A stretch of DNA of 64,000 nucleotides from Pelotomaculum sp. PtaU1.Bin035 (GTDB taxonomy: Bacteria; Bacillota; Desulfotomaculia; Desulfotomaculales; Pelotomaculaceae), in contig MVRN01000004.1 in assembly GCA_002067965.1 (NCBI GenBank), forward strand, positions 1 to 64,000, in the 5' to 3' direction. Below are positions 12,281 to 14,921 of the stretch, in pieces. Each line of letters opens with the position of its first letter. Position 1 is the stretch's first letter. The position numbers and the translations under genes were made by a program. A model generated the notes under the pieces. That model saw nothing but the letters and a program-made list of their open reading frames with translations, did no database searches and was not told the DNA's origin.

Positions 12281-12484
12281 TTACTTGGTTAAGCCGTATT
12301 TTTTACGGAAGCGTTCGGCTCTTCCGCCGGTCTCTATGGTACGTTGAGATCCGGTGTAAAAGGGGTGGCATTTGGAGCAAATTTCCACGCGCAGGTCCTT
12401 CTTGGTGGAACCGGTTTCAAATGTCTCACCGCAAACGCAGGTTACTTTGGCCTTCCCATATTGGGGATGTATAGCTTCTTTCAT
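12281..12484 (-). CDS. rpmE: Ribosomal protein L31, zinc-binding form
   Basis: Large-subunit protein bL31, 67 residues from [20 protein letters not shown]. It is the C+ form: CVCG near residue 16 and [10 protein letters not shown] near residue 37 supply four cysteines for a zinc ion. The ATG at 12484 has AGAGGTG 7 nt upstream; the GTG three codons earlier overlaps that site. It follows the radical SAM gene by about 90 bp and appears to have its own promoter. Confidence 0.96.
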
Positions 12485-12534
12485 TGGGTTCACCTCTTTT
12501 CATAAATGAAACAACCCTGTAAACACACGTGTAT

Positions 12535-12573: not shown

Positions 12574-13857
12574 TCACCTTACCGGGCGGCTGAAGCTCCC
12601 CACGTCCAGTCCCGGCACTTCTTTCAGCGCTTTAATCAGACCCGGTATGCCGATAGCCTCTCCTTTTCCGTCCGGCAAATGTTGAAACAATAAATCCGGG
12701 TCAATGTTCAGGTTGCGCAGTTGCACCAGGTTCACACCGGTTTCTTTTATAAGTTCAACCAAAGCTTTCACTTCATCCTCCCGGTCGGTCAGGCCGGGAT
12801 AAACCAGCAGGTTCAGCGAGGTGTACACACCGGACGAGACTGCCGTCCCGAGCGAGCGCCGGACGTCGGCCAAGCTGTACCCCCGCGGGCGGTAGTAGGC
12901 GTCATAGGTGTCTTCACGCGCGCTGATCAGACTAACCCTGATGGCGTCCAGTCCGGCCCGGCAAATATCCCTCACACCCGCGGCATAGCCGCCGTTGCTG
13001 TTCATATTTATTGTTCCGAGGCTGGTTGACTCGCGGGCCAACCCGATTGCTCTCACGACGGTACCGGCGGCCAGCGCCGGCTCTCCTTCACAGCCCTGCC
13101 CGAAACTAATAATGGCGCCCTCCCCGCTGCTCAAGTGGAGGGCCGCCACGTCCGCCACTTCGGCGGCGGCCGGGCTAAACCCGATCCGCGATTGCGGCGG
13201 CGGGCAGCACTCAGCCGGCTGGAGCGATATGCAGCCCAGGCAATTGGCGTTGCAAGCGGGGGAGACCGGTACCCCTCCCTCCCAGCGGCCGTAGAAAATA
13301 TTTTGAGCGGTGAAGCACCGGTACTCCAGGGCGCAATGAGCTAACTGGCCAAGAACGGGGTTGTGTGGAAACAACGCCAGTTTTTCCCGCACTCGCACGG
13401 GCAGGTCAGGCGTATTGTAGCGGGATGGGTCCCAGCGGTCCGGCTCATCGGTGAGCCGTGCCGCCGCGTACAATTCGCCGTCCCGGCAAGCCACGGCAGT
13501 GTATCCAAGCAAGGGCAGCGGTTTCTCCTTCCCGCTTCTCGTATAGGAAGGCAACAGGGTACGGGTATAACCCTGGGGGAGAAGCGCCCCGACCGCCCAC
13601 GACCGCCCCCCGGCCCATGGGTTGTTTTCAAGCGCCGTAAAACGGCCGGCACGGGTCATCCCTACCGGCGTCCCGCCGGGCACCAGGACCAGGGAGGCCC
13701 CCGCCGGCAGTTTAACCAGGTCCTCTCCGGCCAGTTCGACAAAACGGCCGCCGGTCCGGCCGGTGGCGAGCAAGGTGCGGTGGTCGTAAAGCTGTCCGTC
13801 ATCCCCGGCAAAAAGCAAGCGGTACAAATGCGCACTCCCCCGGAACTTATTGTTCAT
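12574..13857 (-). CDS. Radical SAM protein of unknown function
   Basis: A 427-residue protein with the radical SAM cluster motif CX3CX2C at Cys202, 206 and 209 (SPACNANCLGCIS), unusually far from the N-terminus. The first 200 residues form a separate domain I do not recognise, containing a Cys pair (HCALEYRCF) shortly before the cluster site. The following barrel has TINMNSNGGYAAGV and DAIRVSLISAREDTYDAYYR, typical of a SAM/substrate barrel. No substrate can be named. The ATG at 13857 has almost no ribosome site; TTG at codon 11 has GGGGGAG 9 nt before it and may be the real start. Neighbours are a LysM-M23 peptidase upstream and rpmE downstream, with no obvious partner peptide. Confidence 0.85.
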   Translation of the reverse strand: MNNKFRGSAHLYRLLFAGDDGQLYDHRTLLATGRTGGRFVELAGEDLVKLPAGASLVLVPGGTPVGMTRAGRFTALENNPWAGGRSWAVGALLPQGYTRTLLPSYTRSGKEKPLPLLGYTAVACRDGELYAAARLTDEPDRWDPSRYNTPDLPVRVREKLALFPHNPVLGQLAHCALEYRCFTAQNIFYGRWEGGVPVSPACNANCLGCISLQPAECCPPPQSRIGFSPAAAEVADVAALHLSSGEGAIISFGQGCEGEPALAAGTVVRAIGLARESTSLGTINMNSNGGYAAGVRDICRAGLDAIRVSLISAREDTYDAYYRPRGYSLADVRRSLGTAVSSGVYTSLNLLVYPGLTDREDEVKALVELIKETGVNLVQLRNLNIDPDLLFQHLPDGKGEAIGIPGLIKALKEVPGLDVGSFSRPVR

Positions 13858-13905: not shown

Positions 13906-13914
13906 TTATTATAC
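13906..13914 (-). promoter_or_regulatory. Extended -10 promoter candidate for the radical SAM gene
   Basis: The minus strand reads TGGTATAAT, an extended -10 (TGnTATAAT), about 50 bp before the radical SAM start. No recognisable -35 is present at the usual distance, which extended -10 promoters can tolerate. Confidence 0.4.
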
Positions 13915-13937
13915 CACAGCCCGCGGGAAACCGGGCA

Positions 13938-13960
13938 GGGGCAAGCTTGGGGCTTGCCCC
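13938..13960. other. Stem-loop after the LysM-M23 gene
   Basis: Perfect 8 bp arms GGGGCAAG (13938-13945) and CTTGCCCC (13953-13960) with a 7-nt loop lie about 25 bp after the minus-strand stop of the peptidase gene. The minus strand lacks a U-run after the stem, so if it ends transcription it is not a standard intrinsic terminator. Confidence 0.45.
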
Positions 13961-13985
13961 TTAATTTATTATCCAATGATGATGT

Positions 13986-14849
13986 CTAACCGTAATAGCT
14001 CTCCCGCTTCAGGAAAGTCAGCGGGTCGAGCGGGACGCCGTTTTGCAGCACTTCCAGGTGCAGGTGCGGCCCGGTGGAATGGCCGGTGTTGCCGGACAGG
14101 GCTATCACCGTGTCAGTGTTGACAGCATCTCCCTCAGTTACAAGCACCTTTGAGCAGTGGGCGTACAATGTGCTCGTCCCGCCGCCGTGGTCAATAATTA
14201 CCGCCAGCCCGTAGGTCCCCCTGGGGCCGGCAAAGGCCACCTTGCCGGGCGCCGCCGGCCGGATTGGCGTACCTTCCACGGCCGCGATGTCGATACCTTC
14301 ATGACGGCCGCCGTCTCTTAAACCGAAAGGAGAAGTAATTTCCCCGGCCAGCGGCCAGGCCAACTGCCTGATCGCCGGGCCAATGGCGGGCAGCGCATCT
14401 TCAAGGCCGGTGACACCGCGCGGGATCAGCAACTGCCGGCCGGCAATGATGTTATTGATATCGGCCAGCCCGTTCCTGGACGCGATAACACCCGCGTCCA
14501 CCCGGTACATCATGGCGATTTCCGACAGTGTTTCCCCCGGCTGGACCAGGTGGGCGGCACAGTCCGCCGGCACCTTTAAAAGTTGGCCGGCGCGGATGTT
14601 GTCCCTGTCGGCCAGGCCGTTTACCGCCACAAGGGTTTCAATTGACACCCCGCTTCTCCCGGCGATATCCGAAAGTGTGTCACCGGATTTTACCTCATAT
14701 AAATTATGAGGCGCGGCTGCCACGGCGGCCGGCGGCGCTTCGTACGGCGCGCTCTCAAGAACGCGCTCGTCAAGGCGCGCGACAGCCGGGACGGCAGCCC
14801 ACAGTACGGCTAGCACCGATAAAATTACTGCAAATGTCTTTGGTTTCAT
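13986..14849 (-). CDS. Exported LysM-M23 peptidoglycan endopeptidase
   Basis: Predicted secreted cell-wall hydrolase of 287 residues from MKPKTFAVILSVLAVLWAA, a signal peptide probably cut near AVA-R. Two LysM modules follow (about residues 50-92, YEVKSGDTLSDIA; and 98-143, HLVQPGETLSEIA), then an M23 metallopeptidase domain. Its zinc ligands appear as HEGIDIAA (HxxxD) and HLHLE. The ATG at 14849 has AAAGAGGTG 5 nt upstream. It sits between rho and the radical SAM gene. The overall form resembles SpoIIQ or NlpD-like enzymes, but sporulation use is only a guess. Confidence 0.92.
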   Translation of the reverse strand: MKPKTFAVILSVLAVLWAAVPAVARLDERVLESAPYEAPPAAVAAAPHNLYEVKSGDTLSDIAGRSGVSIETLVAVNGLADRDNIRAGQLLKVPADCAAHLVQPGETLSEIAMMYRVDAGVIASRNGLADINNIIAGRQLLIPRGVTGLEDALPAIGPAIRQLAWPLAGEITSPFGLRDGGRHEGIDIAAVEGTPIRPAAPGKVAFAGPRGTYGLAVIIDHGGGTSTLYAHCSKVLVTEGDAVNTDTVIALSGNTGHSTGPHLHLEVLQNGVPLDPLTFLKRESYYG

Positions 14850-14921
14850 AAAAACACCTCTTTCAAAGCAAATCAATGGGTAGTTTTGCCTGAAAGGGTG
14901 AATTTTATACCTGTCCCAACT

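Follow-up and report, generated by a model that had tools for sequence, protein, structure and literature searches.

A minus-strand gene in the window (the whole 64,000-nucleotide stretch of Pelotomaculum sp. PtaU1.Bin035 DNA that we analyzed) encodes a radical SAM protein whose family is widespread but has no name. Besides the three cysteines of the radical-cluster motif, the family carries three further invariant cysteines, C175, C181 and C256, which form a putative second, substrate-facing Fe-S site. We give about an even chance to the protein being an enzyme whose single barrel bears two distinct cysteine sites, the second binding an auxiliary cluster. Two features revealed by the alignments go beyond the initial annotation of this gene, namely the third extra cysteine, C256, and a lineage that has lost the radical-cluster motif.

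Table 1 Features of the radical SAM gene and its surroundings in the window
Feature	Position	Strand	Basis
Radical SAM gene	12574..13857	minus	Open reading frame, 427 aa, ATG at 13857; extent as in the initial annotation
β-rich N-terminal domain, residues 11-136, ~12 strands	13450..13827	minus	AlphaFold models and conservation
Helical linker with Cys pair, residues 137-190	13288..13449	minus	Model secondary structure
C175, first extra invariant Cys	13333..13335	minus	98/98 rows; 115/115 distinct intact, 25/25 motif-less
C181, second extra invariant Cys	13315..13317	minus	98/98 rows; 25/25 motif-less; 21 residues before the motif
Radical SAM barrel, residues 191-427	12577..13287	minus	Pfam, AlphaFold model, Foldseek, VIA
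CX3CX2C motif, C202/C206/C209 (CNANCLGC, residues 202-209)	13231..13254	minus	98/98 rows; 124/124 intact, 0/24 motif-less
SFGQGCEGEP loop after strand β2	13078..13107	minus	Holds the third extra invariant Cys, C256
C256	13090-13092	minus	98/98 rows; 25/25 motif-less
N284, aligned with the NifB β3 Cys	13006..13008	minus	hhalign; His in 11/115 distinct intact, 21/25 motif-less
Family signature QxRNLNID, residues 379-386	12700..12723	minus	D386 in 115/115 distinct intact and 25/25 motif-less rows
M23 peptidase with LysM, upstream neighbor	13986..14876	minus	Open reading frame, Pfam and neighbor counts
rpmE (bL31), downstream neighbor	12281..12493	minus	Open reading frame, Pfam and neighbor counts
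Candidate extended -10 (TGGTATAAT) of the radical SAM gene promoter	13908..13916	minus	Read off the sequence

The gene is confirmed as real: a genome scan found at least 580 pattern-matched stretches that encode relatives, of which 80 were kept, and this excludes a chance open reading frame. Frame 1 of the plus strand contains stops across the same interval. Translation more likely begins at the TTG at 13827 (residue 11), giving a protein of 417 residues. This start is favored by a GGGGGAG located just 5' of it, by the lack of conservation of residues 1-10 in the 98-row alignment, and by the pLDDT below 50 of residues 1-7 in the AlphaFold model. An 11-pair hairpin (13937-13961), with its T-rich tail on the plus strand, lies between the M23 and radical SAM genes together with the candidate extended -10 element, so the radical SAM gene may have its own promoter; the candidate element was absent from the output of a consensus scan.

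When the whole protein was searched against Pfam and NCBIfam, Radical_SAM (PF04055) was the only family over its cut-off, matching residues 197-363 with an E-value of 1e-9 (39.2 bits against 29.5). The best NCBIfam match was moaA (TIGR02666), which scored 27.1 bits where the cut-off is 284.05, while the nifB (TIGR01290) and lipA (TIGR00510) models were absent from the NCBIfam families at E up to 1. Searching solved structures with the single sequence gave nothing significant, and RlmN appeared neither there nor in NCBIfam; a profile search of solved structures reached BlsE (E 0.00046) and MoaA (E 0.00062). No paper specific to the family was found by title or abstract opening among the PubMed Central matches listed. 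The initial annotation had placed a radical SAM motif at residues 202-209 and left the enzyme outside the characterized families. Both statements hold, the first through CNANCLGC and the Pfam score, the second through the lack of a confident full-length match in the Pfam, NCBIfam and solved-structure searches. It had also described an unrecognized 200-residue domain ending in a Cys pair. The region is indeed unrecognized and the pair, C175-x5-C181, is present in 98/98 rows, but the AlphaFold model divides it into a β-rich domain (residues ~11-136) and a helical linker (137-190), and it is the linker that bears the pair.

The full-length AlphaFold model (pLDDT 93.5, pTM 0.91) is β-rich over residues 13-135 and helical over 139-189, followed by the barrel; a separate model of residues 8-165 reached a pLDDT of 93.7 and a pTM of 0.80. 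Conserved residues of the β domain include P94, G96, R99, P103 and Y119. When 77 N-terminal domains were searched against Pfam, no two of them matched the same family (best E 0.054), and the domain encoded in the window was itself unmatched. With the model of the β domain, the best Foldseek E-values were 0.12 in the PDB and 0.061 in BFVD, and among 999 chains VIA found none that reached Z 2. As this last result is far below what is usual for unmatched models, the model is possibly odd, even wrong-handed, and we make no claim of a new fold. A search for the domain in 149 genomes (76 matching) gave strong matches in frames of 408-560 residues that resemble the radical SAM gene, and five weak additional matches (E 3e-5 to 0.008), three of them with stops.

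Six cysteines, C175, C181, C202, C206, C209 and C256, are invariant in 98/98 rows of the family alignment (93 distinct), from which L008 and L093, being short frames, and L081, the window itself, were left out. Beyond C256 the only common cysteine is C299, in 35/98 rows. A Cys-Cys at residues 217-218 (13204-13209), past the motif, occurs in 62/98 rows and is replaced by Ser-Phe in 25. C256 lies in SFGQGCEGEP, the GxGE-type SAM loop; in radical SAM enzymes this loop contacts SAM beside the active site.

In all ten NifB rows from near genomes, a Cys at -20, a His at -7 and a Cys at +80 were found relative to the first motif Cys. K1 ligands are given as C18/H31/C115 and C29/H42/C128 for two numbered proteins in a published account, and we assigned them to our ten rows by spacing: 13 in all, then 84 and 86 in the numbered proteins against 87 in the rows (PMC9692996). 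In the radical SAM family the upstream Cys, C181, is at -21, and the residue that aligns with +80 is N/H284. A single-pair hhalign comparison matched NifB over residues 196-417 with a probability of 93 (E 2.6e-7), against a probability of 5 for LipA. From the alignment and this analogy, a second cluster site in the family is likely, and the most likely mechanism of the enzyme would be radical chemistry, with a substrate that this site holds or activates. In the mechanism we propose, C175, C181 and C256 would ligate an auxiliary [4Fe-4S] cluster close to the position that K1 has in NifB, leaving one of its irons open. The open iron would bind or activate a small substrate, or donate sulfur; the first cluster (C202/C206/C209) would generate a 5'-deoxyadenosyl radical to attack the substrate at the second site, and the β domain would shut the pocket through R99 and Y119.

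Several observations weigh against this model. The NifB profile match begins at residue 196 and does not reach C175 and C181; NifB has nothing that corresponds to C256, and its His ligand is Gly, Ala or Ser in the family. Foldseek, run on the full model, puts LipA first (4u0p, E 5e-8) rather than NifB (E 1.3e-7), with BlsE between them (1.1e-7), even though the LipA profile probability is so low.

Four distant Chloroflexota matches lacked CX3CX2C. A search centered on one of these motif-less proteins matched 27 of the 121 genomes of its class, including G459, whose protein is intact. Among the other 26 rows, the 24 with letters at all motif columns have Cys in none of them; the other two are G427 (locus L114), also without the motif, and G576, a fragment that stops ahead of it. 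C175, C181 and C256 are each present in 25/25 of the rows that cover all three (25 of the 26). For comparison, the 124 intact rows represent 115 distinct proteins. The motif-less rows also retain R99 (25/25), H241 (24/25), E259 (24/25), P260 (25/25) and D386 (25/25), as well as G253, G258, R275 and D358. None of the rows with a letter at the column keeps N286, R307, Y321 or N349, and three keep R224.

Strand β3 is altered in these proteins (L152-L175, from the class of G411), Asn284 having become His in 21/25 and Asn286 Glu in 23/25, a change that could mean the gain of new ligands for a metal or a substrate.

In a tree of 61 chosen sequences, the 24 motif-less rows formed a single branch (100/100), adjoined by the intact protein of G459. 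Since the tree was midpoint-rooted (the two incomplete rows were omitted), the direction from intact to motif-less is one that we infer. The order M23 - gene - obg is found both at the intact locus L124 (genome G459) and at the motif-less L111, which fits a loss of the motif in place. The branch is under purifying selection: dN/dS was 0.12-0.40 in 12 chosen motif-less pairs and 0.03-0.33 in the four informative intact pairs (a fifth was near-identical and hence uninformative). A tentative reading, to which we give a little less than an even chance, is that the motif was lost once in one Chloroflexota lineage while the auxiliary site, able to work by itself, and the β domain were kept under selection, so that a radical enzyme became a cluster-only protein that might serve as a Lewis-acid catalyst, a cluster carrier or a sensor. 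The second site would then be left alone and used without standard radical SAM chemistry. As support for a second cluster, the clade has the weakness of being a single loss event.

The extra cysteines could instead be a zinc-binding site or redox thiols. In its zinc form, which we consider rather unlikely, this alternative has the three cysteines holding a structural zinc that pins the linker to the barrel of a single-cluster radical SAM enzyme. It would explain why C175, C181 and C256 outlived the motif, and, with just three of the ligands being invariant cysteines, the fourth could be another residue, for example D386 or H241, both of which are retained. However, a SAM-contact loop by the active site, where C256 lies, would be an unusual place for zinc, and C181 and residue 284 are near the positions of the NifB cluster ligands.

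The gene was found in 33/41 near genomes (its own included), in 119/299 genomes of its phylum, Bacillota (E 1e-40, 90% completeness), and in 48/201 sampled genomes of Chloroflexota, the phylum of a Ktedonobacterales carrier that is itself included. Both phylum samples show one match per genome. A second Bacillota sample (93/199) largely repeats the genomes of the first and is thus not independent. Named carriers include Pelotomaculum, Syntrophomonas, Selenomonas, Paenibacillus, Brevibacillus and Thermogemmatispora. A mobile origin was rejected, with 0 matches in 72,556 plasmid records and 0 relatives among 41 viral-contig pattern matches. So was a link to nitrogenase: the nifB model matches 20 of the 41 near genomes (E 0.001), 11 of them over its cut-off, against 33 with the radical SAM gene, and G034 has nifB over the cut-off without the radical SAM gene. 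Apparent gene fusions at L113 and L118 were also rejected, their long frames looking, by eye, like antisense open frames in GC-rich DNA. The motif-less lineage itself separates the two possible cluster sites and could be measured free of radical-cluster signal. Should its members contain an Fe-S cluster, they would reveal what a lone auxiliary cluster does and open a way to the function of a family this common in the sampled genomes of the phylum.

Neighbors were counted at loci flanked by 4.5 kb or more in each direction (60 from Bacillota, 16 from Chloroflexota), taking the best match per locus; for rho, M23, L31, DUF1385, RF-1, PrmC, Pth and Obg, a Pfam search with one member of each served to check the name. 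At the Bacillota loci, rpmE lay downstream on the same strand in 48 and upstream in none, prfA downstream in 27 and rho upstream in 40, while M23 was found in 23 (22 upstream on the same strand) and pth in 12 (10 upstream). The Chloroflexota loci had rpmE in 6 (downstream, none upstream), prfA in 6, obg in 5, M23 in 4 and rho in 0. For comparison, we took 30 rpmE loci from 29 genomes without the radical SAM gene (30 genomes searched). M23 adjoined rpmE in 9 of them (85-242 bp between profile matches) and rho in 4 (86-181 bp). The gene therefore sits in an old housekeeping locus (rho/M23/rpmE/prfA) that exists also without it, and its neighbors are weak evidence on function. In the Syntrophomonas-type loci L015, L029, L031, L061, L064 and L069, a gene for an HD-domain protein with an OB-fold-like start (YhaM-like) lies downstream of the radical SAM gene.

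This bears on the proposal that the protein is a translation enzyme modifying rRNA, tRNA, bL31 or a release factor, which would be compatible with the second-cluster model and which we regard as distinctly unlikely. The neighbors rpmE, prfA, prmC, pth and obg, at the frequencies given above, speak for it, and several three-Cys radical SAM enzymes modify tRNA or a ribosomal protein, as a review describes (PMC5352715). Against it, M23 or rho adjoins rpmE in 13/30 loci that have no radical SAM gene. bL31 was rejected as a substrate, no position being at least 90% fixed in 60 sequences from genomes with the gene and below 60% in 30 from genomes without it.

The initial annotation had set the gene between a cell-wall peptidase and rpmE, with which Pfam agrees, and had called it an orphan with no precursor peptide and a substrate that could not be guessed safely. 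We likewise saw no precursor peptide or obvious partner and found no substrate or phenotype, but "orphan" understates a gene with a recurrent place in two phyla. Its hint of a sporulation link was not supported: SpoIVA was present in 107/119 genomes with the gene and 149/180 without it, a difference that is not significant (Fisher p 0.09), and 12 of the 299 genomes carry the gene without SpoIVA.

Finally, we compared the protein with named radical SAM enzymes. That it is a diverged NifB, LipA or MoaA doing that enzyme's job is highly improbable, in spite of the similarity of fold and profile, given that moaA scores far under its cut-off and the nifB and lipA models are not matched, that nifB and lipA are both encoded elsewhere in this genome, at scores over their cut-offs (387.9 and 369 bits, respectively), and that no cysteine past C256 is invariant. 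VIA on the full model ranked NifB first (6y1x, Z 17.4, rmsd 3.9, 215 residues aligned), tied within 1 Z with the PFL-activating enzyme (16.7) and followed by RlmN (15.6). The family resembles NifB in barrel fold, in its profile match, in the xPVxPxCNxxCxxC around the motif and in an upstream Cys 20-21 residues before it. It differs in having the additional Cys of the β2 loop and the β-rich N-terminal domain. Of the K1 set it has the upstream Cys alone, with Gly/Ala/Ser in place of the His and Asn/His in place of the β3 Cys; it also lacks the C-terminal K2 Cys pair, and it occurs in genomes with and without nifB. RlmN shares the fold over residues 166-422, but its catalytic Cys arrangement has no counterpart in the family.

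LipA has a C-x5-C before its motif, as part of an upstream auxiliary CX4CX5C. The family is like LipA, its first Foldseek match, in the C-x5-C ahead of the motif; unlike LipA, it has just C175-x5-C181 there, places its third extra Cys inside the barrel and gives no profile match. BlsE, the cytosylglucuronate decarboxylase, is the second Foldseek match and a weak profile match, yet its own model scores 17.3 bits against a cut-off of 400. As no Cys past residue 256 is invariant in the 98 rows, neither a Cys-rich C-terminal SPASM/twitch domain nor the C-terminal CX2CX13C of MoaA is present. With its three extra invariant cysteines besides CX3CX2C, the family resembles the MoaA/TYW1/MiaB/RimO/LipA group. 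Radical SAM enzymes with a three-Cys extra cluster are treated in a review, which places the auxiliary-cluster cysteines of MoaA at the C terminus and those of TYW1 at the N terminus (PMC5352715). Unlike in that group, the cysteines of the present family are split, with two of them ahead of the barrel and the third in the SAM loop.
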